NCBI GenBank assembly: GCA_017447185.1
Contig: JAFSOC010000024.1
Span: 1-64,000, forward strand
Reading direction: 5' to 3'
From: Clostridia bacterium
GTDB lineage: Bacteria; Bacillota; Clostridia; Christensenellales; Aristaeellaceae
DNA length: 64,000 nt
Shown in pieces: positions 7,063 to 24,100 of the stretch. A program made the translations under genes and the position numbers. The notes under the pieces were generated by a model, which did not search any database, was not told where the DNA came from, and saw only the letters and a list, made by a program, of their open reading frames with translations. Position 1 is the first letter of the stretch, and each line of letters begins with the position of its first letter.

Positions 7063-8568
7063 ATGAAGAAACTCGTTTCCCTGCTGCTGGCATGCTGCAT
7101 GCTGCTCAGCCTGAGCGCCGCCTTCGCCGAGGACAAGGTGGAGCTCACCGCCTTCCAGTACGCGCTGGAGAACCAGAACACGGACTTCAACGGCCTGTGG
7201 TTCTTCAACGAACTGGAAGAGAAGACCAACACCCACGTCACCTTCCAGATGGTGAAGGACGCCGACTGGGCCACCAACGTGAACCTGATGTTCGCCGTAC
7301 CGTCCCAGATGCCGGATATGATCATCCGCCATGCCGTGGACGTGGAAGAATACGGCGTCTCCCAGGGCCTGCTGCTGCCGCTGGACGAATACCTGACGGA
7401 AGAGATCATGCCCAACTACGTGAGCCGCCTGAACATCAACAACGCCGGCGACTCCATTCCCGCCAGCGACGGAAAGACCTACTACATCGGATTCCTGATG
7501 GCGCAGAACGTGAACCACACCGGCACCTGGTACGTGAACCAGAAAGAGCTTGAAAAGCTGGGCAAAACCGCTCCCACTACCATCGCCGAGGTGACCGAGC
7601 TGCTGCGGGCCATGAAGGCCGACGGCATCAAGTGGCCCTTCTCCGCTTCATACACCCAGTTCGGGCCGGAAACCATCTGGAACCAGTTCGCTTCCTTCGG
7701 CGTACCGGAGAACACCTACTACTACTTCATCGACGGGAACGACAAGGTTCAGTTCACCTGCGAACAGCCCGGCTGGCGCGCCTGCGTTGAATGGCTGCAT
7801 CAGCTGTACGAGGAAGAGCTGATGGATCCGGAATCCCTGACCCAGGACTCCAACCTGTGGGCCAACAAGGTCAATGACGGCGAGGTGGGCTACTTCTGCT
7901 ACCTGCGGCTGATCAACACCGCCATCAAGGCGGAAAACGTCGGGAACTTCAAGTCCATCCTGCCCCCCGCGGCGGAAGGCTTCAAGGCCTGCGTGTCCCA
8001 GATCCTGGAGGTTCCGGAAGCCGGCGCCTACCTGACGAAGAACTGCAAGGACCCCGTGGCGGCCCTGAAGTGGATCGACGCCCAGCTGGAGACCGAAACC
8101 ATGATGGTTTCCCTCAACGGCAAGGTGGGCGAGCAGATCGTACTGAACAGCGAAGGCAAGTATGAAGTCATCGACATTCCGGCGGACAACGGCCTGTACC
8201 AGTTCGTGCCCGTGACCATGGGCCAGTTCTTCGCCCCGGGCGACTACTACACCTCCATCTACCAGATGGCGCCCCACCGGGTGGAACGCTATGAGGACAG
8301 CAAATGGTACGCCGAAGCCGGCGTGCTGGAACCCAAGAGCTTCCAGTACCTGCGGGACCTGAGCAAGCTGAGCAACGAAGACGCCACCGAGGCGGCGGAT
8401 ATCTACACCGAGCTGCAGAAGCTGGTGGAAGAATCCTTCGCGAACTTCGTGCGCAACGGCGTGACGGACGACAGCTGGAACAACTTCATCGCCCAGGCGA
8501 AAGCCATCGGTTCCGAGCGCTATATCGAACTGTACCAGAACGCTTACAACACGTATCTGGCGAAGTAA
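7063..8568 (+). CDS. Extracellular solute-binding protein, LipO family
   Basis: The 501-residue protein starts with a Sec signal peptide (MKKLVSLLLACCMLLSLS then AAFA). No clear lipobox is seen, so it may be released or retained by other means. The mature part has the bilobed arrangement of family 1 binding proteins, with DMIIRHAVDVEEYGVSQGLL and WLHQLYEEELMDPESL conserved in the paralog at 8685. The ATG at 7063 follows AAGGAGG; the reading frame is open further upstream but that part overlaps the permease gene. It would deliver the oligosaccharide to the two permeases. High expression is suggested by the strong ribosome binding site and the hairpin after it. Confidence 0.9.
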   Translation: MKKLVSLLLACCMLLSLSAAFAEDKVELTAFQYALENQNTDFNGLWFFNELEEKTNTHVTFQMVKDADWATNVNLMFAVPSQMPDMIIRHAVDVEEYGVSQGLLLPLDEYLTEEIMPNYVSRLNINNAGDSIPASDGKTYYIGFLMAQNVNHTGTWYVNQKELEKLGKTAPTTIAEVTELLRAMKADGIKWPFSASYTQFGPETIWNQFASFGVPENTYYYFIDGNDKVQFTCEQPGWRACVEWLHQLYEEELMDPESLTQDSNLWANKVNDGEVGYFCYLRLINTAIKAENVGNFKSILPPAAEGFKACVSQILEVPEAGAYLTKNCKDPVAALKWIDAQLETETMMVSLNGKVGEQIVLNSEGKYEVIDIPADNGLYQFVPVTMGQFFAPGDYYTSIYQMAPHRVERYEDSKWYAEAGVLEPKSFQYLRDLSKLSNEDATEAADIYTELQKLVEESFANFVRNGVTDDSWNNFIAQAKAIGSERYIELYQNAYNTYLAK

Positions 8569-8620
8569 ATCCTTGAATGCCGCGGCCTGAGATGCTACAA
8601 TATCCGCATCGAAAGCCGCC

Positions 8621-8662
8621 GGGCACCGCCGCGGGGCATGCTCCCATCGGCGGTGCCCTTTT
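8621..8662 (+). terminator. Intercistronic hairpin (partial terminator)
   Basis: GGGCACCGCCG (8621-8631) pairs perfectly with CGGCGGTGCCC (8648-8658) around a 16-base loop and is followed by TTTT. Its place between two binding-protein genes suggests it lowers expression of the second gene or protects the 3' end of the first message. Confidence 0.75.
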
Positions 8663-8684
8663 GCCGTATAAACAGGAGATTCAT

Positions 8685-10235
8685 ATGAAACGTACGATCA
8701 AACTGGTTTGCCTGCTGGCGGCGGCCGCTTTTCTGCTGAGCAGCTGCTCGGATCAGGCAGCCGTTTCAAAGGAACCCTCCGGCGCGCAGGCGCCGCTTAC
8801 CGCGCTGCAGTATGAAATCGACAATATCGCGGTGGATTTCTCCAGCATGTGGTACTATCAGCAGATCGAAAAGCAGACCGGCGTCCGGGTGGATTTCACG
8901 GAGGTCAAGGATTCGGAGTGGAGCAGCGCCGTGGCCCTGGCCTTTGTGAAGGGGAAAATGCCGGACATGATCCTGCGGGGTTCGCTGGATATCGAGGAGT
9001 ACGGCGTCACCCGGCACCTGCTGGTTCCGCTGGATGAATACATCGAAAAGGGGCTGCTGCCGAATTATGCCGCCCGGATGGACGAGGCCGGGCTGCGGGA
9101 ACAGCTGACCGCATCCGACGGGCATATCTACCAGCTGGGTTTCCTGATCTCCCAGGACGTGAATACCAACGGCCATTTCTTCATCAACCGGAAATGGCTG
9201 GACGCGCTGCACCTTTCCGTTCCGGAAACCACGGAGGAACTGACGGAGGTGCTCCGCCGCTTCCGGAACGGGGATCCCAACGGGAACGGCCTGCAGGACG
9301 AGATCCCGCTGGAGTTTACCTTCGACGACAACACCACCGGGATTTACAACCTGTTCTCCTTTTTCGCCCTGCCCCTGAATGAGGACTTCGTCTATCTGGA
9401 CGGCAGCGGGAAAGTCCGCTTCGCACCGGAGGAGGACGCCTTCTTCGAGGCCGCGGAATGGCTGCATCAGCTGTATCTGGAAGGGCTGCTGGACATCGAC
9501 TTCATCAGCCAGGGCAGCAGCATCTGGGCGGCGAAGGTCAATGAGGGCAACGTGGGGATGTTCAGCTACTGGCGGCTGCAGAACACCGCGCTGAACCCGG
9601 GTATCACGGCGGATTACGAAATCATGCTGCCGGTGCACGCGGAGGGGCGGAAGGCCTGCCTGCCCCGGAACATGGACATTATCGAGTTCGGGGCGGCGCT
9701 GACCACCGACAACCGGGATATTGAGGTCAGCCTCCGGTGGCTGGACGCGCAGTTCGAGACGGAAAACATGCTGGTGTCCCAGAACGGACCCGTGGGGGAT
9801 ACGCTGACCCGCCGGGAGGACGGAAGGTACGAAGTCGCCTACGTGCCCGCGGACAACGAGCTTTATCAGACCGTGCCCGTGATCTGCGGACAGTTTTTCG
9901 CGCCCGCGGAATACTACGCCTCCGTTTACGTTCCCGCCGCCCACCGGCGGGAGAAAGCCGGCTACTGCGAGCTGTACGGGCAGGCGGGGGTGCTGGAGGC
10001 GGTATCCGCCAAGGAGCTGACCGCGGTGGCGGCCAAGACCACGGCGGAGTCCTCCGTCATTACCCGGCTGAAAACAAAGCTGAAGTCCGTGGTGGACGCC
10101 GGGATCGTGGCCATGGTTACCCAGGGGGTCACGGAAGAACGCAAAACGGAATTCCGCCAATCGCTGAAGGAGAACGGGTATGAAGAATACTGCCGGGTTT
10201 ATCAGCAGATCCATGACCGCCGGAAGGAGAAATAA
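8685..10235 (+). CDS. Second LipO-family binding lipoprotein
   Basis: This 516-residue paralog of the protein at 7063 has a lipoprotein signal ending LLSSC, so Cys would be lipidated and anchored to the membrane. Shared blocks include IEEYGVTRHLLVPLDEYI, WLHQLYLEGLLDIDFI and QFFAPAEYYASVY. Unlike the first copy it has an insertion reading DPNGNGLQDEIPLEFTF, a calcium-site-like DxNxNG loop seen in many members of the family. The ATG at 8685 follows CAGGAG. Two bases separate its stop from the regulator GTG at 10238, so the two are translated together. It may sense a ligand for the membrane regulator or bind a different oligosaccharide. Confidence 0.9.
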   Translation: MKRTIKLVCLLAAAAFLLSSCSDQAAVSKEPSGAQAPLTALQYEIDNIAVDFSSMWYYQQIEKQTGVRVDFTEVKDSEWSSAVALAFVKGKMPDMILRGSLDIEEYGVTRHLLVPLDEYIEKGLLPNYAARMDEAGLREQLTASDGHIYQLGFLISQDVNTNGHFFINRKWLDALHLSVPETTEELTEVLRRFRNGDPNGNGLQDEIPLEFTFDDNTTGIYNLFSFFALPLNEDFVYLDGSGKVRFAPEEDAFFEAAEWLHQLYLEGLLDIDFISQGSSIWAAKVNEGNVGMFSYWRLQNTALNPGITADYEIMLPVHAEGRKACLPRNMDIIEFGAALTTDNRDIEVSLRWLDAQFETENMLVSQNGPVGDTLTRREDGRYEVAYVPADNELYQTVPVICGQFFAPAEYYASVYVPAAHRREKAGYCELYGQAGVLEAVSAKELTAVAAKTTAESSVITRLKTKLKSVVDAGIVAMVTQGVTEERKTEFRQSLKENGYEEYCRVYQQIHDRRKEK

Positions 10236-13362: not shown

Positions 13363-13402
13363 GCGGGAAGGAGAAAAATGGTTCAAAATGACAGGCTTCC
13401 TG

Positions 13403-14902
13403 CTAAATGATCATTGCAACGGTAAATGCCATTACGGCAGACAGGAAATTGCTTGCCAGATTCACCATGTCATTGTCCATCCAGTGAACGCCGCTGAATA
13501 ATGTATTGTCCTTTCCGGACGGTGATTTTTTCTTCTCGGTGTATTTCCCCGAATCCGCGTCGATATAAAGGGCCTGGAAATACGCGCCGAGAACCGAATC
13601 AAATATGCAGCCCGCAAAACCGGACAATGTGATAACGGCAATTCCCAGCGGCAGCTTCTTCATCAGCGCATCCGCCGGTCCTGCTGTTCCTGAAAAAAGC
13701 ACATACCAGAATACCGCGATGAAAGCCGCTCCTGCCAGTCCTCCGCCGTATCCCAGCAGCGTCACGCCGCCGCTCACGCCCCGCGGAACGATTTTTCCTG
13801 TTTTCAGGGAGACCGGCGGTTTCTTCGATAATCTTCCGATCTCACCGGCCCAGGTATCGCTCGTGGCTTCTGTCATTGCCGCGCCGAACATCACGATGGC
13901 CGCAAACATCATCCGCATCGGAAGCAGCGCTTTTGCATCTGCGGCAGTCAAAGCATTCGTCCTTAAATACGCATCCGAAACCGCGAAAACCACCGCCGCC
14001 AGGACCGCCATCAGTCCGTTTGCAAGCACCTGCATGAGATCTCTTCTGCTGTTCTTCTTCTCGGTAAAATTGCCTTCTTCCTTCTGAATATGATCCCTGA
14101 TTTTCCCGATCACATTCGCGCTGGCAAAGAAAAGAAGAAGCAGCACGAGTCCGGCAAGGCCGAAGATCCACGTACATAAAACCGCGAGCACGAACGCACC
14201 CACGACGCCGTTTGCGGTCAGAAGTTTCCATTTGTACGCAAGACACGCCATCAGCGCAAACCCCAGAAGCATCGCGCTCTTCGGCCAGAACGCGACGGTC
14301 GCGTAAAGCACCAGCGGAACCGTTATATTGTCAAGGCCGAAGGGCGTCATGAATTCAAAGACCGCGCCTGTCAGCCCGCACACAACCGACAGAAGGATAT
14401 TGTGCGTGAAAAGGAAAGCAATGACGGTTACAGCAGCAAAAAACGCCGCCATCCCTTCCAGTGATTTGCCCGTATTCAGCCTGTGCTTTCCGAATTTCAT
14501 TCCGACAATGGCCGCCAGTCCGTCTCCCCATCCCATTCCGAGGAGCCCGACGCCGAGTTCCGTCATTCCGCCGATTCCAGATTTTCCCATTAGGATCATG
14601 ATAAAAATTGAAACCGGATACCATACCAGGCCCCAGTTTCTCTTTTTATTGCCTTGCCCCAGTGCTTTATCAAACATCCCTGTGGCGTTCGCTGCTGCGA
14701 CAAGCGCGGCGACAACCGGCAGTCCGATGAGCGCCGGGACCGGCGAGGTAAAAAATCCCGCATAGATGAAATACCAGTGGGCTGCCCCGATATGGACGAT
14801 TTTCCTGGCCGTCTCCGGATTCTTTTTTGACACCGGATACGCAATCACAAAACAGATGAAAACCAGCAAAATCGATAACAGTAATCCAATGAGGTCCTGC
14901 AT
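13403..14902 (-). CDS. Fusion: phytol/dolichol kinase-like domain + DUF92 (VTE6-like)
   Basis: This 499-residue polytopic membrane protein joins two isoprenoid-kinase-like halves. Residues 1 to about 215 resemble the CTP-dependent phytol/dolichol kinase family (plant VTE5): ARKIVHIGAAHWYF near 31-44 and GWGDGLAAIVG with KSLEG near 123-150. Residues from about 215 on match DUF92, whose plant member VTE6 is a phytyl-phosphate kinase: SDTWAGEIGRLSKK and PRGVSGGVTLLG are typical. Together they could convert a prenyl alcohol to its diphosphate in two steps. It is the last gene of a minus-strand operon with UbiA and a glycosyltransferase. The ATG follows GGGGAG. The family assignments are good; the substrate (phytol, geranylgeraniol or a polyprenol) is inferred. 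Confidence 0.75.
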   Translation of the reverse strand: MQDLIGLLLSILLVFICFVIAYPVSKKNPETARKIVHIGAAHWYFIYAGFFTSPVPALIGLPVVAALVAAANATGMFDKALGQGNKKRNWGLVWYPVSIFIMILMGKSGIGGMTELGVGLLGMGWGDGLAAIVGMKFGKHRLNTGKSLEGMAAFFAAVTVIAFLFTHNILLSVVCGLTGAVFEFMTPFGLDNITVPLVLYATVAFWPKSAMLLGFALMACLAYKWKLLTANGVVGAFVLAVLCTWIFGLAGLVLLLLFFASANVIGKIRDHIQKEEGNFTEKKNSRRDLMQVLANGLMAVLAAVVFAVSDAYLRTNALTAADAKALLPMRMMFAAIVMFGAAMTEATSDTWAGEIGRLSKKPPVSLKTGKIVPRGVSGGVTLLGYGGGLAGAAFIAVFWYVLFSGTAGPADALMKKLPLGIAVITLSGFAGCIFDSVLGAYFQALYIDADSGKYTEKKKSPSGKDNTLFSGVHWMDNDMVNLASNFLSAVMAFTVAMII

Positions 14903-14981
14903 CCTATACTCCCCGCCGTTTTATTCTTTCATGCATTTTGCAGCTGTTCGGAACCCTCCGGTTTCCGGACCGCCGCCCGGT

Positions 14982-16229
14982 TCATTTCTTTTTCGCGCTG
15001 TACATTTTCTCCGCCGTAACCGTATGCCGGATCGGCTTCCATTTCGGTTTGTAAAACAAAGCGACCACCGTCAGAGGCACATACGTCAGAGTGAAAAAAG
15101 GAAAAGTAAATAAGTAAAGAATCTTGCTCCGCGCGCCGGCCCGGATGTTTTTCCACTCCGTGACGATAAAAAACAGACCGGCCAGGAAGAACATACCATA
15201 CATTTCGACAAACAGCAAAGCAAAAGACTGCACCGCCTCCATAAAACCGTTCCCTGTAACGGCGCCGTGAAGGATCAGGCCGAGGTTCAGGAGCAAAGAC
15301 GCCACACAAATGACGTAAACCGGCGCAAAAAGGATCAGTTCAAAGCAGGAAAGATTTCCGTGAAAGATCCCCCAGAACACCTTTTTCATGTACCGTACCA
15401 TCACCTGCAGCAGCCCGCTGAGCCACCGGATCCGCTGGTGGCATGACACAGGAAAGGAGGTCGGCTGTTCGTCGTATAACACAGCCTGCCGGCAGAATGC
15501 GATTTTCTCTCCTTTTGTCACCTGGTCAAAAGAAAACTCCCAGTCTTCCGTCAGCATATGATACGGCCATCCGCCCGTTTTTTCGGCAATTCTCCTGCTG
15601 AACAGAAATCCGGTGCCGGATACGGTTCCGCTGATCCCCAGCAGATACCGGGGATAATTCAGGTAGATACTGTCCCACAGGAACCACAGCGTATACCCGG
15701 CGCTGATCCAGTTGTCCCCGAAGTTTTTGCTGTTTCTGAAACCGGTGACGATCTCGTGCCCGTCCGAAAACTTCCTGTTCATCTGTTCGATATAATCATG
15801 CGCAGGAATGTTGTCCGCGTCAAATACAAAGTATCCGTCAAATCCCTCCGGATAATCCTCCCGGATGTGATGCATCAGTGCTTCCAGCGCATAACCTTTT
15901 CCGACTTTTTCCGGATCAGAACGGGTATATACATGAACGCCGCGGGAAGAAGCCGTGTCAGCGGTGCTGTCCGTGCAATTGTCCGCCATGACAAAAACGT
16001 CGATGAGATCCTGCGGATAGGATTGGGATTTTATACTGTCAAGCAGATCCGCAATGACGTTCGCTTCATTTCTCGCACAGATCAGGACTGCATAATGGTG
16101 AAGAGAAGGTTCCCTGCCGGAAGATTTCTCTTTCCTGAACAAAGCGACAAAAAGAAAGACGACCAGTTTCAGATTCAAAAAAATGGAAATAAAGAAAATC
16201 AGATGATTGATGAAATCAGGGACACGCAT
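14982..16229 (-). CDS. GT2 glycosyltransferase, processive membrane type
   Basis: The protein of about 415 residues has an N-terminal membrane helix, a GT-A domain and three or four C-terminal membrane helices. Catalytic motifs are visible: YAVLICARNEANVI at the nucleotide-binding start, VFDADN (metal-binding DxD-like), TEDWEFS and HQRIRW (the QxxRW motif of cellulose/hyaluronan-synthase-like enzymes). It would transfer a sugar from a nucleotide donor to a lipid or growing glycan at the membrane. I chose the ATG at 16229, 8 bases after GGAGG; the in-frame GTG at 16238 touches the ribosome binding site. It lies between UbiA and the prenol-kinase fusion in one operon, so its acceptor may be an isoprenoid lipid. 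Confidence 0.85.
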   Translation of the reverse strand: MRVPDFINHLIFFISIFLNLKLVVFLFVALFRKEKSSGREPSLHHYAVLICARNEANVIADLLDSIKSQSYPQDLIDVFVMADNCTDSTADTASSRGVHVYTRSDPEKVGKGYALEALMHHIREDYPEGFDGYFVFDADNIPAHDYIEQMNRKFSDGHEIVTGFRNSKNFGDNWISAGYTLWFLWDSIYLNYPRYLLGISGTVSGTGFLFSRRIAEKTGGWPYHMLTEDWEFSFDQVTKGEKIAFCRQAVLYDEQPTSFPVSCHQRIRWLSGLLQVMVRYMKKVFWGIFHGNLSCFELILFAPVYVICVASLLLNLGLILHGAVTGNGFMEAVQSFALLFVEMYGMFFLAGLFFIVTEWKNIRAGARSKILYLFTFPFFTLTYVPLTVVALFYKPKWKPIRHTVTAEKMYSAKKK

Positions 16230-16284
16230 CTCCTTCACCTCCCTCCGGCAGCTGTTCAGAGCCCTTCGGGTCTGAGCCTCTGTC

Positions 16285-17154
16285 TTAAAAAAACAATGAT
16301 CCTGCTGTAATGGCGAGCAGGCTGACGGCCATTGCGATTTTTAAAAACTTTATCACTTTTGTACAGGTTGCTTCAGCAGGTTCCAGATTCGAAGCAATCA
16401 GGGCGTAAACCGCGTATCCGTACAGACTTAACGCGATCACGAAGATCACGAGATATGCGATATTGAAGATCCCGAAGGCGTATAAAACGACATGCACCGC
16501 AACTGTCAGAGCAAGCAGGAGAATCGTTATGACTGAAGACGCTTTTTTTCCGTACAGAATGGGGAAGGTTTTTGCGCCTTCCAGCTGATCTCCCTGAACA
16601 TCTTCCATATCCTTGACGAGTTCTCTGGCAACATTGGCAACCGCGGCCAGAAGACCGATGTAAACCGATACCCTGAAGATTTCCCGGTCGTTTATACTGC
16701 AGAGAAGAATAAATCCGCCGAGGACAAAACAGAACCCGATCATACCGCCTACCACGATATTTCCGAACAAAGGCATCGCTTTGAAATAACGGGAATAAGC
16801 ATAGATGATCACAGCGGAACAGAGGATGATCACAGAAAACAAAAAGTTGCGGATCAGAATACTGATGATGACGCTGAGAACGGCTGAAACGGCATACAGG
16901 ATTCCCGCGTAAATCCTGGCGTTCTTCAGCGATATTTTTCCGGAAGGAATCGGGCGGTCCGGTTTGTTCACCGCGTCAATTTTGTAATCAAACACGTCGT
17001 TGATTACATTCCCGGCGCCGGCCATTAAAAAAACAAGGATCGTGCCCAGAATGACAGAAACCGAAAAATGATGCCCGACAATTGCGGTGATCACAATCGG
17101 CATGGACATCATAAGCGCTTCATCCGGTCTTAAAATTTTTATATAAGCCTTCAT
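16285..17154 (-). CDS. UbiA-family prenyltransferase, DGGGP-synthase-like
   Basis: This protein of about 289 residues is an integral membrane prenyltransferase with nine or so helices. Both metal-diphosphate motifs are intact: NDVFDYKIDAVNKPDRPIP near residues 52-70 and RELVKDMEDVQGD near 185. The 'RELVKDxEDxxGD...GAKTFPILYG' pattern most resembles archaeal-type digeranylgeranylglyceryl phosphate synthases rather than MenA or UbiA of quinone synthesis. It would attach a prenyl diphosphate to a lipid or aromatic acceptor. I prefer the ATG at 17154, 11 bases after AGGAG; a GTG at 17166 overlaps that site. It is the first gene of the operon with GT2 and the prenol-kinase fusion. Confidence 0.8.
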   Translation of the reverse strand: MKAYIKILRPDEALMMSMPIVITAIVGHHFSVSVILGTILVFLMAGAGNVINDVFDYKIDAVNKPDRPIPSGKISLKNARIYAGILYAVSAVLSVIISILIRNFLFSVIILCSAVIIYAYSRYFKAMPLFGNIVVGGMIGFCFVLGGFILLCSINDREIFRVSVYIGLLAAVANVARELVKDMEDVQGDQLEGAKTFPILYGKKASSVITILLLALTVAVHVVLYAFGIFNIAYLVIFVIALSLYGYAVYALIASNLEPAEATCTKVIKFLKIAMAVSLLAITAGSLFF

Positions 17155-17233
17155 GAACTCATTCACTCCTGTGAAACTAAAAAGCTTGGTTTACCTGTTT
17201 TTTTGATAAGGCCATCGGGAAATAATACGGGGC

Positions 17234-17263
17234 ATTATACCACGTACAAGGCAAATTTGACAA
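17234..17263 (-). promoter_or_regulatory. Promoter of the UbiA-GT2-prenol-kinase operon
   Basis: TTGTCA (17258-17263) and a perfect TATAAT (17234-17239) are 18 bp apart on the minus strand, with TGG just before the -10 box giving an extended -10. It lies about 75 bases before the UbiA start. Confidence 0.75.
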
Positions 17264-17330
17264 CTTATCGTCCAATACCGTCCTTTTGGAAGAATATGGT
17301 TTGATCAGCCTTCTTCCTGTTGGTTTTTCG

Positions 17331-20189
17331 TTATTCTTTCTCTTTTACGATCTCCACAATATTCCATTTTTTCATGGACCGCGAAGAAATCAGGTGGCTG
17401 AGCACAATGCAGCCGAAGAGCAGTCCCGCCGTCAGCAGGCATTCGACGATTCCGCTGGCGAACGGATATTCTGTTTCTTTCGTCGCGAGCTGACGCAGCG
17501 CCGTTACGGCGAATACTGCACCGAGGGGTGTGCCGATGATGCAGGAGAATACAAAGTAGAGCAGGGACTGCAGAAACAGTTTCGCTGAGACAAACCGGTG
17601 AGAAAATCCCAATGTACGCAGCACACACAGTTCTTTTTTCTGTTCCAGAAGATTGGTCTGCATTGTGTTGACGACAATGATCAGGCCGATCAGCACGGCA
17701 AAGCCGATGATGATCCATGCCGCCAGATCGTAAAAGGCAAAGCCCTTCTCCGTGCCTTTCCGGAACAGCCTGGTGAAGATACAGTACCGGTAATCATCCC
17801 GGCCGGCCAGCAGGGCCTGCACGGAACGTTCTCCCTCCCTGATCGCGGTTTCATCCGTTTCCTCCGTCCGGATCAGGATTGCCCGAAACGTCGGTTCCCC
17901 AAGCTTTTCTGCCTGACGGGCGGATATATACTGACTGCGGTTTACGTTCTGATTGGATATGCCGGCTACTTCCATCCTGACTCCGTCAACCAGGACAAGA
18001 TCGCCGGGAACAGCCCCCAGTTCCTCCGCCAGGTGTTTTTCCAGAAGAATGCCTTCTGACGGGACCGAAAGAGGCTCGTCCTTTATCCCGAATATCCGGA
18101 TCATATCGGTATCCTCCGGAAGTGCGTTTACCGAAGCGGTTTCCGTATGTCCCTGAAATGAAATATCCGAAGTATAATAACCCATCTGCAGGGTTTCGGA
18201 CACATAGTCCAGAGCCTCAAGTTCTTCCATAAAGGTTTGATCCGGCACATCTTTCAGAAACACCTGGCAGTCATAACGGATCTGTTTTTCAAAAAGCTCC
18301 GTCAGAATTGCGTTTTTCGATGCGATGAACGAGAGGGAAGCAAAGATAATCATCACAGATGCAGAAAGACAAAAGGCTGAAAAGATGAACCGTTTTTTAT
18401 TGCGCAGCAGGGAGATAATGCTGTACCGGGTGAAGGGACCGGCTTTCCGGGTCAGCCACCGGCCGAACCCGGAGAGTTTCCCGGAGGACGGCGGCTGCCT
18501 GGACATTGCTTCCGAAGGCTGGATCCGGCTGATCAGGGAGGTTCCGGACAGCGTCGCGGCCTGGCCGACAACGACCGTCAGCAGGGCGGAAAAAACCACG
18601 TTTCCGGTATCGAAAACATTCTCATAGAAGGGAAGCGGGAAAAAAGATTCGAACTCCGACCCGATATAACGGGCAATCCCGATGCTGATCAGCGTGCCTA
18701 GAATAATCGCACCCAGCGAAACCGGGAGGTTTACTTTGCAGAACAGCAGCCGGATGTCCCCGGCGGAGAAGCCCAGGGCCCGCAGAATGCCGATCTCCCG
18801 CCTGCTCTGGCGGATGATCAGGGACATGAATAAAAAGGCGGCGATCAGAACGACCATGAAGAAGACCGTCGGCAGCAGGAGAGTCAGTGTGTTGACCGGC
18901 GGCAGAACTGAGTCGATCCGGTTTTTCACAGCGGAATTATCATAAAGAAAAAAATACTGGATTTCCGGAACTTCACCCTCCAGGATCCGGACCGCTTCCT
19001 CCAGCGTCTCTTCCCGGTCGGCGCCCGGGGTGAACCGGAGCAGGAATTCGTTGCAGAACACCTGGTATCCTTCCCATTCTCCCAGCTCATCGTATGCGGC
19101 CGCCAGCTCCGCCTGCTTTTCCTTCAGCAGGGCGCAAGCGTCGTCCAGCTCCTTTTCTGCCGTGGAAATCTGTTCAGCGGCAGCGTCCAGCTGTACACGC
19201 AGCTCCTCTGCCTCCGCGATGCCCGCATCCAGCTGCGCCTGTTTTACGTTCAGCAGGGTGTATGAGGTCTCCAGTACCGTCAGTTTTGTCTTCAGCAGGG
19301 TGTAGGCGGCGTCCAGCGCGAAGGCGGTGCCTGGTTCCATTTCTCCAGCGGCAATCTGTTCAGCAGCAGCGTCCAGCTGTTCAGCGGCAGCGTCCAGTTG
19401 TGCACGCTGCTCCTCTGCCTCCGCGATCCCCGCATCCAGCCCGGTCTGTTTTTCCTGCAGGGCTGCTTCAGCCTGCTCCAGTTCAGCCCGCTGCTCCAGC
19501 AAAAGCTCTCGATTGCTGTCCAGCTCCTGCTGCTTTTCTTCCAGTTCTTCGGCTTTTTCTTCGAGCGCCGCTTTGGATCCTGTGTACTCGGTATTTTCCT
19601 CCTGTTCCAGAAGGCGGATGGGAACATAGATATAACCGAAGTCGGAATTTGCGCCCCAGGCAGTCTGTGTCGGCTGTACTGCCAGCGTTTCCGGCATGGA
19701 GACGATTCCCGCGACCAGATAGCTGCGGTACTCGTCGCCGACGCGGACCGAAACGGTATCTCCTGCAGAAATCCCGTTGTCATCGGCAAAATTAACATCC
19801 AGAAGAATGGCATCCTTCTCTACCGGGTCTGCCTTTTGCCAGTAATGAAACCGCTGGAAATCCCCGTCGGAAAAGGAAATGGCCCGGACTGACAAGTACC
19901 GCCCTGAGGGACTCATCATCACCGTATCTCCCAGCAGGCGTGTATTCACCTCGGAAATGCCCGGCAATGAGCGCAGGAGGTCCGCCTTGTCCCGTGTGGT
20001 AACCGCGGTCTGGATCACCCCATCCGGATAGCCATAGTCCCGGATATAATGCGTCAACGACCTTTCCAGGGAAAGGTAACCGCTGGCAAGCCCTGTCACG
20101 CTGGCGCATCCTACGGCGGATACCAGGAGAATGGAAAGCAGGAGTTTCCAGTATCTTTTTATGATCGCCCGGAACATAAATCCTTTCAT
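17331..20189 (-). CDS. FtsX-type ABC permease with coiled-coil insertion
   Basis: This 952-residue protein has an N-terminal membrane helix, an extracytoplasmic region, and two FtsX/MacB permease domains of three helices each, near residues 455-590 and 830-945 (REIGILRALGFS and KELCVLRTLGFS are the FtsX signature loops), plus a helix near 630. Between the first helix and the first FtsX domain, residues 207-375 form a long coiled coil rich in Glu, Ala and Gln in which LDAGIAEAEE recurs. Such permeases move lipids, peptides or lipoproteins or transmit force across the membrane. It has its own promoter and is partnered by the ATPase at 20486 and the permease at 21166. The function is unknown. 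Confidence 0.85.
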   Translation of the reverse strand: MKGFMFRAIIKRYWKLLLSILLVSAVGCASVTGLASGYLSLERSLTHYIRDYGYPDGVIQTAVTTRDKADLLRSLPGISEVNTRLLGDTVMMSPSGRYLSVRAISFSDGDFQRFHYWQKADPVEKDAILLDVNFADDNGISAGDTVSVRVGDEYRSYLVAGIVSMPETLAVQPTQTAWGANSDFGYIYVPIRLLEQEENTEYTGSKAALEEKAEELEEKQQELDSNRELLLEQRAELEQAEAALQEKQTGLDAGIAEAEEQRAQLDAAAEQLDAAAEQIAAGEMEPGTAFALDAAYTLLKTKLTVLETSYTLLNVKQAQLDAGIAEAEELRVQLDAAAEQISTAEKELDDACALLKEKQAELAAAYDELGEWEGYQVFCNEFLLRFTPGADREETLEEAVRILEGEVPEIQYFFLYDNSAVKNRIDSVLPPVNTLTLLLPTVFFMVVLIAAFLFMSLIIRQSRREIGILRALGFSAGDIRLLFCKVNLPVSLGAIILGTLISIGIARYIGSEFESFFPLPFYENVFDTGNVVFSALLTVVVGQAATLSGTSLISRIQPSEAMSRQPPSSGKLSGFGRWLTRKAGPFTRYSIISLLRNKKRFIFSAFCLSASVMIIFASLSFIASKNAILTELFEKQIRYDCQVFLKDVPDQTFMEELEALDYVSETLQMGYYTSDISFQGHTETASVNALPEDTDMIRIFGIKDEPLSVPSEGILLEKHLAEELGAVPGDLVLVDGVRMEVAGISNQNVNRSQYISARQAEKLGEPTFRAILIRTEETDETAIREGERSVQALLAGRDDYRYCIFTRLFRKGTEKGFAFYDLAAWIIIGFAVLIGLIIVVNTMQTNLLEQKKELCVLRTLGFSHRFVSAKLFLQSLLYFVFSCIIGTPLGAVFAVTALRQLATKETEYPFASGIVECLLTAGLLFGCIVLSHLISSRSMKKWNIVEIVKEKE

Positions 20190-20326
20190 TCGACCTTACA
20201 ACCTCTTGATTACTCAAGATCAGAACTGGCCTTATTTATCAGGGATGCGAAGCACGACCGAAGGGAGCCTGTCCTTGATAAAGGAGGACCGCTCTGATAT
20301 AGACAAACGGCGGGGCCAGTGGCGCA
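20190..20326 (-). other. Untranslated leader of the coiled-coil permease
   Basis: About 130 bases lie between the mapped promoter and the ATG at 20189. The leader can form a stem from 11-base arms at 20235-20245 and 20272-20282 with one G-U-type mismatch, enclosing 26 bases. No known riboswitch class is recognised and no poly-T follows the stem. Confidence 0.4.
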
Positions 20327-20485: not shown

Positions 20486-21148
20486 TCACACCAGTTGGCC
20501 ATCCTGGAGCCGGAGGATTTCATCGGCGCGTTTTCCCAATTCACTGTCATGGGTTACGATCACGACACAGTAACCGTCCTCATGGGCCAGGCGCTCCAGG
20601 ATGCTGAAAATGTTGTCACTGTTCCGGGAGTCCAGGTTGCCTGTGGGTTCATCCGCCAGGAGCACCCGGGTTTCCATGCCCAGTGCGCGCGCGATCGCCA
20701 CGCGCTGCTACTCGCCGCCGGAGAGCATGGCGGGGAAACGGTCCAGCACCGTTTCCGGCAGGCCGACCCGGGCAACGAGTTCCGCCGCGCGTTTTTTTGC
20801 CGCGGCGGGCTTCATTCCCCGCAGTTCCATGGGATACATCACATTTTCCGCCGCGGTGAGCAGGGGAAAGAGGCGGAAATCCTGATAGATCACCGCTACG
20901 CGCTCCCGGCGGTACTGCTCCAGGTCCATTTCCGCGGTGGAAACCCCTTCGCACATGACGTTTCCTTCGGTGGGGATATCCAGTCCGGCCATCAGGGAGA
21001 GCAGGGTCGTCTTTCCGCCGCCGGAGCTGCCCATGATGGCGTACACCTTACCCGGCTCAAATGCGCAGGAAATGCCCCGAAGGGCTTCCACCCGCTGATA
21101 CTGGGACTGGTAAACATATTTCACATCGCGCAGTTCAATGACGCTCAT
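20486..21148 (-). pseudogene. ABC transporter ATPase with in-frame amber codon
   Basis: Read through, this is a complete ATPase of about 220 residues of the MacB/LolD type: Walker A GSSGGGKTT, Q-loop VIYQDF, signature LSGGE, Walker B VLLADEPTGNLDS and the switch His in VIVTHD. A TAG at 20708-20710 interrupts it between LSGGE and QRVAIARALG, where the family has a Gln codon (CAG); one C-to-T change explains it. No frameshift or other damage is seen. Translated normally it would end at about 146 residues and lack Walker B. Restart at the downstream ATG (20701) gives only the C-terminal 71 residues. It may be a recent null mutation, a sequencing error or, less likely, suppressed. Both partner permeases are intact. 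Confidence 0.85.
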
Positions 21149-21165
21149 ATTCTTTCCCCTTTCCG

Positions 21166-24100
21166 TTAATCGCGAAGCGTCAGGAGCTCCATGAGATCGG
21201 TCTTTCCCGCCATCAGCACGGATACGGCTGTTCCCAGCAGATAGCAGGCCAGATAAACCGCCGCGGCCAGGGGCTGTGTCAGCCTGCCCGCATACAGCCA
21301 CAGGAGCGCTGTGCATCCTGCCAGGCATCCTGCGATGCTGAGAATCGCCTGCTCCAGGAAGAAGGAGGCGAACACCCGCCGTTTCGGAGCGCCGAAGCCT
21401 CGCATCAGTGCGAACTCCTGCCGCCGGGAGAAGGTCATCAGCCAGGAAATCACAAAGCCCAGGATAGCGATCAGCAGCAGGAGGGCTGTGGAGATCACCC
21501 GGCCCATGGTGATGTTGCGCTCCATATTCTCCTTGAGCTTCAGGAAGGCTGCATCCCGCAGCAGCAGCGTCGTACGGTTGGCAGACGGGCGTCCCACCGC
21601 ACTGAAGCCCTGCTCCCGCAGGTGCTTCCGGATCAGGTCCAGGTCCCGCGCAGAGGAAAGATGGAACCGGCAGGTACGGAAGGTAAAAAGGATCTCGCTG
21701 TAGATGCCATCCGGCATTTCTGCGTCTGTCAGCATTTCCGGCGGGAGATAACAGGACAGCGGCACGAAAACTGCAGCTTTATTCTCCTTCTGGACATAGC
21801 TCCCCACGGCCTGCAGGATCACGGGAACCTCCCACCGGGAATACCCGTTGTAATCGGCCTGGACCATGCAGGGGAAAGTATCGCCCAGGGCAAGGCCGTG
21901 ATCTTCCAGGAAGGCTGCGCCGCACACGGCAGGAATGCATTTTTCTTCCACTTCTTCTATATCCCGCAGGAGGATCGGCGTAAAGCCCGTTTCCTTCAGC
22001 ATGGATTCATCCCAGCCTTCCAGCCAGGTGACAGCCGGATCCGCATAGTAGAACTCCCTGGCTGCTGCCAGGCTGTTCAGCGCCACGATTTCCGGCTGCA
22101 TGTCAATCCATTCAAGCCTGCGCCTCCGGCCGTTTTCCCCGTTGGTGAAGGAGGGTACATCCTCCTTCAGCCAGTAGCGGTAACCATAGGATACGGAGAC
22201 ATCATCCACACCTTCGGTGGCCAGGAGCGTCCGGACATCATACACGGACAGGACCAGGTTCGAATAATACCGGCCATTGAGGCTGACGACAAGCCCGTCA
22301 ATGCGCGTGTTATCCAGGGCGCTGTCCAGTTCGTTCTGCCAGTCCTGGTACATCCCGCCCAGAAAGACAATCATCACTGTAAGCGCGAGGGAAACCAGCG
22401 GAACAACCCATGACCGCGGGCCGCCCCGGCGAATGGAAAGCAGCGCGAAACGCAAACCGCCCTGATCCCTCACAGACGTTTTTCCATGCGGGACACGGAT
22501 CCTGCTCCGGCCGCGCCTGCGTGTTCCGCCCCGGCGGGCAATACGGAGAAACAGCAGGCAGAACAGCACCGCAAGCGCCACGATCCCCGCTGCGGACAGC
22601 AGGCCGGGCCAGAGCGGCACCTGCGGATCAAAGGCCGTCTCCTTCACGATACCCAGGGAACTCTCACTGTACAGCAGGCGTCCGGCTTCTGCCCGGGCGG
22701 CATTCAGCGCGTCTTCGATCATATGGAACACTGCCGGGCGCAGGGCCGTGCCCAAAGCGGTTCCCAGAAGGACGGAAATACCGCAGATAACCAGCATGGC
22801 TGACAGGAACCAGAGGACAATATCACGGCCGGGCGTTCCCAGGGAAACCATGATTTTCACAGTGCTGCCCTGCCTGCCCACAAACAGGAGCGCGAACAGC
22901 AGCAGTACGGCCGCAACGCCTGCCGAACAGATCAGCAGCACATTGATGGCTGTTTTCCTGACTTCACGGAAGGGTTGCACGGCATTGCCGTATCCCTGAT
23001 CCAGCAGGGTTACCCGCACCCGTTCGGGCATGAGTGCCTGCAGCGCTTCCGCCGCTTCTTCACCCTGCCCGTTGCGAAGGGAAACGGTGCCCAGCAGATA
23101 ACCGAAAAGCGGTGTGTCCGCATCCTCCGCAATGACCCAGACTGTACCGCGGTAATTCGCGGCGGTGGCGGCAATACCGCTGACCGTGTAATCCTGCGTT
23201 TTGCCGGTAAGCATGAGCCTGTAACGGTCGTCGTCCGTTCCACGGAGTTCATCCATCGAAAAGGTGTCGCCCGGCTTCAGGCTCAGGGCATCCGCCAGAT
23301 CAGCGGTAATCACGCAGGAGTACGGAGAACCGGGATCCGGCATGGAACCTTCCGTCAGATGCAGATCGTTCTGCTGGAATCCATACACATCGTTCACATC
23401 GCGGCAGGGCACGACCCGCACGTAGTTATTCATGATCCGGTACTGTTCCGTCGCGCGGAGGAAGGGCTCCGGAACGGGTTCGCCCGCGGCGTGGTCCGCG
23501 TATGGAAGATCGTCAGAAGAAAGGAAGGATTCAACCCTGAAGATATCAAAACCGTTCATCGGATAATCGCCGATATGCCGGGTGTCCCGGGATTTATCCA
23601 CAAAGGTGCCGTTCAGGATATATGTTTTTCCTTCCTCCGGCATGAAACCGCTGTCGCCGGGAAGAAGATCGATATGGGTTTCTTCCTTTCCCTTCCGGGA
23701 ATAGAATATTTTGTCCAGCGTACAGGTATAATAAGTAAAGGATCCTTCCGATTCGACCGGATGATTCAGTCTGTCAAACAGATACCATTGGGAAATGGGT
23801 TTGGACACACGGCTGACGGCAATTACAGCCCGCCAGCCGTAGGGCATGATATCGAATTTTCGCTCATATCCCGCAGCGGACGCGAAAGCGGTATTGCCGC
23901 GGGTCCACGCGGTAACACCGGGAACGGCAAGAATGCTTTCGTCTGTCAGCGCTTTCGCTGCGGCCCGGGCGGCAGCATCCGGCTCGTCCTCACTGGGGTA
24001 TTCCGAACCCATGTATTCAATAAGCGCGATGGAACGATAAGCCCTGTCGCAGGCATCCAGCGCGCTGTCACAGTACTGAAGCACGCTGAGGGACAGAATC

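Follow-up and report, generated by a model that had tools for sequence, protein, structure and literature searches.

The salvage of prenols by VTE5 and VTE6 in plants and cyanobacteria feeds a UbiA enzyme. Few genes for prenol-salvage kinases have been identified, and these in plants and cyanobacteria (PMC9782597). In Methanosarcina barkeri, the protein Mbar_A3310 joins a Sec59-like domain to a DUF92 domain; the former was assigned to the Sec59 dolichol-kinase family and the latter to the cytidylyltransferase family, and an isoprenoid kinase step was inferred (PMC5898192). Digeranylgeranylglyceryl phosphate (DGGGP) synthase, a UbiA-family enzyme of archaea, accepts a form of geranylgeranylglyceryl phosphate (GGGP) that is based on glycerol 3-phosphate (PMC9385802). 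In bacteria, a DGGGP synthase homologue was described in the FCB group (Ca. Cloacimonetes); there it is accompanied by a GGGP synthase, and both enzymes group with those of TACK archaea (PMC7852524). Here we analysed 64,000 nucleotides (positions 1 to 64,000, hereafter the window) of contig JAFSOC010000024.1, assembly GCA_017447185.1, from a Clostridia bacterium (Christensenellales; Aristaeellaceae). It carries a 6.8-kb block of genes for an ABC permease, a UbiA prenyltransferase, a membrane glycosyltransferase of family 2 (GT2) and a fusion of a prenol-kinase-like domain with DUF92 (Table 1). Each family is known and the fusion architecture is published; what is new is its link to a UbiA of the DGGGP synthase type. 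A preliminary description of the locus knew of no bacterial pathway described with this gene set. In the open-licence literature our search found no paper on the set, and so far that statement stood, whereas the Sec59-like and DUF92 fusion by itself had already been published in M. barkeri (PMC5898192).

The UbiA protein matched PF01040 (2e-39, 135.8 bits vs a cut-off of 34.2) and was the sole PF01040 protein found in the window genome. Its top relative among solved structures was the DGGGP synthase of M. jannaschii, MjDGGGPS (6m31, 2.3e-41). The best NCBIfam models were PRK12884 (243 bits), followed by the DGGGP synthases PRK12882 (205 bits, cut-off 296) and PRK12883 (141 bits, cut-off 353), with all scores below the cut-offs. 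UbiA proteins of the MenA, CyoE and decaprenyl-ribose types were rejected on their much lower scores (36 bits for decaprenyl-phosphate phosphoribosyltransferase). Outside the block, the nearest UbiA loci were those of Methanobrevibacter, at about 40-48% identity. Four of these archaeal genomes (G991-G994) contain exactly one UbiA apiece, which is for this reason probably their DGGGP synthase; a UbiA match was found in 119 of 120 genomes of that archaeal class, 12 of them with a second, distant match. In a tree of 58 rows, the three block copies that we compared formed one clade (100/100) on a stem of 0.97, placed beside 12 methanogen rows that included Methanobrevibacter L068-L070 (96/98). However, a second tree with other outgroups did not have the grouping of the block with the 12 methanogens among its well-supported sets, and by the approximately unbiased (AU) test a tree with all 52 methanogen rows in one clade and the block outside it was not rejected (p 0.29). 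For these two reasons nesting inside the methanogens was dropped and only kinship to the methanogen DGGGP synthases is claimed, which is firm.

We mapped residues of MjDGGGPS (taken from PMC9385802) onto the UbiA and found N62, D66, D70, Y125, K130, D180, D183 and D187 identical (8/8) in the window copy and in the copies L066 and L067. Together with I29 and F148, 10 of the 11 motif and tunnel residues mapped were the same, and S171 was replaced by Ala. The block UbiA shares with the archaeal enzymes of M. jannaschii (6M31) and Methanobrevibacter the UbiA family, the N/D motifs 1 and 3 and the Y-x5-K motif, and has its nearest relatives among them. It differs in having bacterial hosts with no GGGP synthase over the cut-off and in part of the conserved columns: of the 80 columns in which 90% or more of the 52 methanogen rows agree, 56 were kept and 20 were changed in all three block copies. 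The preliminary assignment to the archaeal ether-lipid type was borne out by the MjDGGGPS match and the tree.

A UbiA scan of genome contigs from 84,980 species returned 13 loci, and in three of them the UbiA was 76-81% identical to the window copy: L066, from a metagenome-assembled genome (MAG) labelled Oscillospiraceae (goat duodenum); L067, from a MAG labelled Lachnospiraceae (RUG12865); and L073, from a MAG labelled Solobacterium (Tb.RUG.32), whose contig ends within UbiA, with a partial permease upstream. RUG presumably denotes rumen genomes. Permease, UbiA, GT2 and fusion follow one another in L066 and L067 as they do in the window, and the proteins UbiA, GT2 and fusion are 77-83% identical. 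The nucleotide identity (blastn) of the window block to L066 and L067 was 83.1-83.3% across these three genes and 88.3-88.7% across the permease, and the match ends 10 bases ahead of where the permease starts and no more than 6 bases past the fusion stop. Three of the 10 flanking open reading frames (ORFs) of L066 and L067 matched distant ORFs of the window at 24-40% protein identity and none was syntenic. Within the window genus, UbiA had no match in 35 of the 36 other genomes, the lone match (G026) being distant (28% over residues 5-161). Among 397 other genomes of the phylum (E<=1e-12), two distant matches appeared, in G897 (25% over 5-286) and G940 (35% over 3-151, ended by a contig edge). 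Because the block recurs amid unrelated flanks and its UbiA is nearly missing from the genus, it looks horizontally spread. The G+C content was 46% for UbiA, 49% for GT2 and 53% for the fusion, vs 56% for the window, and 42-43% for the three genes of L066 and L067. With contigs of just 3.1-10.0 kb, L066, L067 and L073 may owe their taxon labels to faulty binning, whereas the contig around the window copy measures 64 kb or more. The three genes, which had been predicted to stay neighbours in relatives, did so in two other contigs (L066 and L067), although these are not close relatives of the window genome. A scan of plasmids with the fusion only and a scan of viral contigs with the fusion and UbiA gave no match, both scans detecting close kin only.

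The C-terminal half of the fusion is a DUF92 domain, as had been proposed from its likeness to VTE6 (PF01940, 3.3e-60, 204 bits vs a cut-off of 27.5), while the match to TIGR00297 (79 bits) did not reach the cut-off of 206. The N-terminal half contains RK..H (33-37), DGLAAIVGMKFG...KSLEG (127-150) and E...GLDN (183-192), and the pattern DGLA...G...G...KSLEG spans D127-G150. We take RK..H and D..A...G...G...K(S/T) to be the prenol kinase (Sec59/VTE5) motif. Within the fusions, R33, K34, H37, D127, A130, K146, G150, E183, D191 and N192 were kept in 11/11, as were D349 and D435 of the DUF92 half. The kinase pattern arose in 5 of 20,000 shuffles, a count to be read in the light of its having been fitted after the sequence was seen. 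Mbar_A3310 has the same two-domain order and two conserved aspartates per domain, for which D349 and D435 would be the counterparts in DUF92; a cassette with UbiA, GT2 and permease is not mentioned for Mbar_A3310 in the excerpts at hand (PMC5898192). The fusion likewise resembles the phytol salvage of plants and cyanobacteria in its DUF92 domain and prenol-kinase-like motifs, the likeness to VTE5 being one of motif and not of sequence comparison (PMC9782597). It differs from that salvage in that a single fused protein is present and the accompanying UbiA is of the ether-lipid, not the tocopherol/quinone, type. Common ancestry of the two halves was considered and set aside: a profile comparison aligned GDGxAxxIG with ADSxASDIG at a weak 14% probability. 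A search of solved structures found no relative of the fusion.

Relatives of the fusion were surveyed in the order (E<=1e-10) and occurred in 27 of 396 genomes: 13 fused (window genome included), 4 as adjacent genes and 10 as DUF92 alone in the stretch read. The last 10 all belong to one genus, so that fused or adjacent forms make up 17 of the 27. Furthermore, in Methanobacteria a homologue of the N-domain (E 2.9e-14 to 5.0e-7 per genome) divergently adjoins the gene for DGGGP synthase, with gaps of 60-489 bases, in no fewer than 17 of the 120 genomes; 18 pairs on the same contig were measured and the 18th was 4.6 kb apart. These genomes are related and therefore do not represent 17 independent events. 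In G019 and G110, from one related genus, the fusion homologue comes just after a squalene/phytoene-synthase ORF; of the two loci, L019:1132-3610 has the synthase by Pfam (PF00494) and L018:6525-10541 by eye (8051-8818), with an ORF of the FAD amine-oxidase type preceding it in L018. A recurring separate cluster was seen in three order genomes, in which the fusion homologue directly follows two genes: one for a radical SAM protein, identified by Pfam each time, and one for DUF5685 (L162:4251-7885 and L166:6521-10051 by Pfam, L164:6141-9688 by eye). Domains of the N-type also stand behind a TauE/SafE permease in single proteins of about 500 residues (L009:583-2094, L011, L012, L013 and L016; Pfam for L009 only).

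The GT2 protein matched PF13641 (1.9e-27) and has the motifs DAD140, TED230 and QRIRW268. One hydrophobic segment stands at its N-terminal end and about three more towards the C-terminus. DxD, TED and QxxRW with C-terminal membrane helices presumably mark processive GT2 synthases (PgaC/CesA type). Among NCBIfam models it matched best EpsU and PgaC, two enzymes of exopolysaccharide synthesis, but with scores far under their cut-offs, and no cut-off of a named equivalog was reached. Relatives (E<=1e-30) were present in 75 of 398 phylum genomes, the window genome included, and the closest, in 4 of the 397 other genomes, were 42-46% identical. Since the GT2 is a Bacillota-type gene, the block appears chimeric, with genes of bacterial and of archaeal type side by side. 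The window genome has a second GT2, 31% identical (G000:C22:5581-6723). In L151, a PF07456 gene (heptaprenyl diphosphate synthase component I, 8e-41) lies beside a GT2 relative, on the opposite strand in what by eye is an Rnf-like run; it is not used as support here.

The supply of substrates was considered in the window genome and the three other carriers. A GGGP synthase (PcrB) over cut-off was found in none of the four, in a search whose control was positive in 7 of 14 named genomes. One PcrB match of the window genome was rejected as a GGGP synthase; it was below cut-off and falls in a gene pair resembling hisA/hisF by eye. The window genome gave one match to trans-prenyl-diphosphate synthases, with Tyr five residues ahead of DDxxD, which we assume to mark the farnesyl diphosphate synthase type. 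The C20 donor would then have to come from elsewhere, that is, from salvage. The carriers thus seem to be without a self-made GGGP acceptor, and the window genome also without a self-made C20 donor. The bacteria of the FCB group differ in having GGGP synthase beside DGGGP synthase and kin in TACK archaea (PMC7852524), whereas here no GGGP synthase over cut-off was found and the kin are Methanobacteria.

Our preferred, though tentative, reading is that the block is a prenol-salvage and prenyl-ether-lipid module. The N-terminal half of the fusion (Sec59/VTE5-like and probably CTP-dependent) would convert a scavenged prenol into prenyl phosphate, and the DUF92/VTE6 half would convert this into prenyl diphosphate. 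UbiA would then attach the prenyl group to a hydroxyl on some non-aromatic acceptor, which is most likely based on glycerol or polyol phosphate, and the GT2 would glycosylate the product at the cytoplasmic face. Export or flipping of the product out of the membrane may be the task of the FtsX-type permease, working with an ATPase whose gene lies outside the block. We infer both kinase activities, the order of the steps and all substrates. That UbiA uses a prenyl diphosphate on a non-aromatic acceptor is quite probable, and it is nearly as probable that the fusion acts as a prenol/prenyl-phosphate kinase. Phytol, a C20 alcohol freed from chlorophyll in the herbivore gut and found in both the diets and the guts of ruminants (PMC8495353, PMC7012361), is our first guess for the natural prenol and geranylgeraniol our second, the first guess having somewhat less than an even chance of being right. 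A glycosylated prenyl ether as the product is a little more doubtful still. In the boldest version, which we consider unlikely, rumen Bacillota would have acquired their DGGGP synthase from methanogens and put it to work with a bifunctional prenol kinase; they would make archaeol-like glycosylated prenyl ethers straight from the phytol of dietary chlorophyll, and the block would have spread as a mobile unit. If true, this would mean membrane lipids of mixed archaeal and bacterial character that are built by salvage, with no geranylgeranyl diphosphate or GGGP synthesised by the cells themselves.

Several observations weigh against the salvage and ether-lipid module. DGGGP synthase is not known to use phytyl diphosphate (PMC9385802). 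Residue 16 of UbiA is Glu in all three block copies, vs Asn in 52/52 methanogen rows and in MjDGGGPS (N19), and acceptor or donor may therefore have changed. No Pfam or NCBIfam hidden Markov model (HMM) of a prenol kinase matched the N-terminal half, its stand-alone relatives or the archaeal ones, which met weak unrelated families only; PF01148 was absent at E<=1 from the fusion and five archaeal homologues and at E<=10 from eight stand-alone homologues, in searches whose filters drop most weak matches. The VTE5-like assignment of the preliminary description thus keeps its motifs and its archaeal relatives beside DGGGP synthase, and lacks a prenol-kinase HMM. Within the motif, G134 was kept in just 6/11 fusions and G138 in 5/11; the Gly matching G134 was kept in 8/8 and 9/9 of the stand-alone homologues aligned. 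Around eight GT2 relatives (judged by eye, with six ORFs near five of them checked via Pfam) a clear prenyl-lipid context was not seen, and for this reason the GT2 could be a passenger. The permease may, by its divergence, have a history separate from that of the three genes, since its dS vs the window copy was 0.22 and theirs 0.41-0.54. Finally, absences are not final, given a completeness of 88.7% for the window genome and no stated value for the other carriers.

Other explanations have to be weighed against the same data. The block could recycle polyprenol for surface polymers: the fusion would re-phosphorylate an endogenous long-chain polyprenol of the undecaprenol type, with UbiA making a carrier like a prenyl-phospho-sugar and the GT2 extending a polysaccharide on it. 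The DAD/TED/QRIRW pattern of the GT2 and its best, far-below-cut-off matches EpsU and PgaC would fit such recycling, as would the DUF92 genes that neighbour uppS in archaea, where an isoprenoid kinase step was inferred (PMC5898192). However, the UbiA is nearest to a C20 enzyme, DGGGP synthase, and not to decaprenyl-phosphate phosphoribosyltransferase (36 vs 243 bits for PRK12884), and the tunnels of MjDGGGPS are apparently too shallow for C40 chains (PMC9385802); we regard such recycling as rather unlikely. Less probable again is a true DGGGP synthase whose product is a lipid of the archaeol type, with the GGGP for it either taken up from outside or supplied by an enzyme that escaped detection. 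Its retained active-site residues and the place beside Methanobrevibacter in the best tree agree with this, but GGGP synthase was over cut-off in 0/4 carrier genomes, the NCBIfam cut-offs for DGGGP synthase were unreached, and the stem is long (0.97) and carries the N16E change. An equally low chance is given to a lipid signal or secondary metabolite, that is, an antimicrobial or competition molecule, for which UbiA would prenylate a small aromatic or specialised acceptor, GT2 would glycosylate it and the permease would export it. An accessory, patchy block with a MacB/FtsX-type permease is what such a pathway could look like, and in three genomes of the order the fusion homologues have neighbours of the radical-SAM and DUF5685 types; yet the block lacks a gene for making the acceptor, and the closest relatives of its UbiA use a glycerol phosphate acceptor.

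Table 1. Features of the block and its surroundings in the window.
Feature	Positions	Strand	Evidence
UbiA prenyltransferase of DGGGP-synthase descent, 293 aa ORF	16285-17166	minus	PF01040, 6m31 match, tree, catalytic residues
Membrane GT2 glycosyltransferase, 418 aa	14982-16238	minus	PF13641, motifs, hydropathy
Prenol-kinase-like domain/DUF92 fusion, 499 aa	13403-14902	minus	Pfam DUF92 and N-half motifs
Fusion N-half, prenol-kinase-like, residues ~1-205	14288-14902	minus	motifs, residues kept across fusions
Fusion C-half, DUF92/VTE6, residues 216-488	13439-14257	minus	PF01940
FtsX/MacB-type ABC permease, 952 aa, coiled-coil insert	17331-20189	minus	Pfam FtsX, MacB_PCD
Promoter: -35 TTGTCA, spacer 18, extended -10 TATAAT	17234-17263	minus	site scan; kept in L066, L073
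Conserved DNA block (permease, UbiA, GT2, fusion)	13397-20199	minus	blastn vs L066, L067; flanks unrelated

The three minus-strand genes and the single promoter of the preliminary description were confirmed by ORFs, Pfam and the retention of the promoter in L066 and L073, but its three-gene operon had to be widened, as a fourth gene, the permease, travels along. The gaps are 46 bases between UbiA and GT2 and 79 bases between GT2 and the fusion. The promoter matches 11 of 12 consensus bases with TG preceding the second hexamer, and was the top of 6 promoter-like sites in the region, where shuffles give 4.2 (sd 1.7), so that the scan alone is weak. In L066 and L073 an equivalent promoter stands at the same position with a perfect TTGACA. 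L067 has lost the promoter, and its permease and UbiA are no more than 36 bases apart, which suggests joint transcription of the two at this locus. The UbiA start is, from comparison with L067, whose ORF begins at the matching ATG, probably the ATG at 17154, four codons further in than the GTG at 17166. Comparison of the block copies gave dN/dS values of 0.18-0.35 in UbiA, GT2 and fusion and of 0.34-0.42 in the permease, and this purifying selection, together with the Pfam matches, rules out chance ORFs.

The permease (FtsX 1e-26, MacB_PCD 6.9e-14) lies upstream of UbiA in the window, L066, L067 and, partially, L073. Imperfect repeats of about 100 bases in its coiled-coil part (19092-19460) match several places in the other copies, and the number of repeats may therefore vary between loci. 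Upstream of it, an ABC ATPase ORF (20708-21328) has an in-frame stop right past the SGGE signature, beyond which the frame stays open for some distance; a sequencing error, a pseudogene or recoding may account for it. In L066, the ATPase ORF ahead of the block (L066:1346-2257) consists of part of DUF1016_N fused to an ABC domain, as if recombination had left a scar where the block begins.

If the salvage and ether-lipid module is correct, it would provide a bacterial route to ether lipids without GGGP synthase or a C20 chain of its own, fed by prenols from plants or archaea. Such a route would matter for the lipid divide, for the exchange of genes between methanogens and gut bacteria and for how ether-lipid biomarkers from guts are interpreted, and would give a genomic handle on prenol-salvage kinases.

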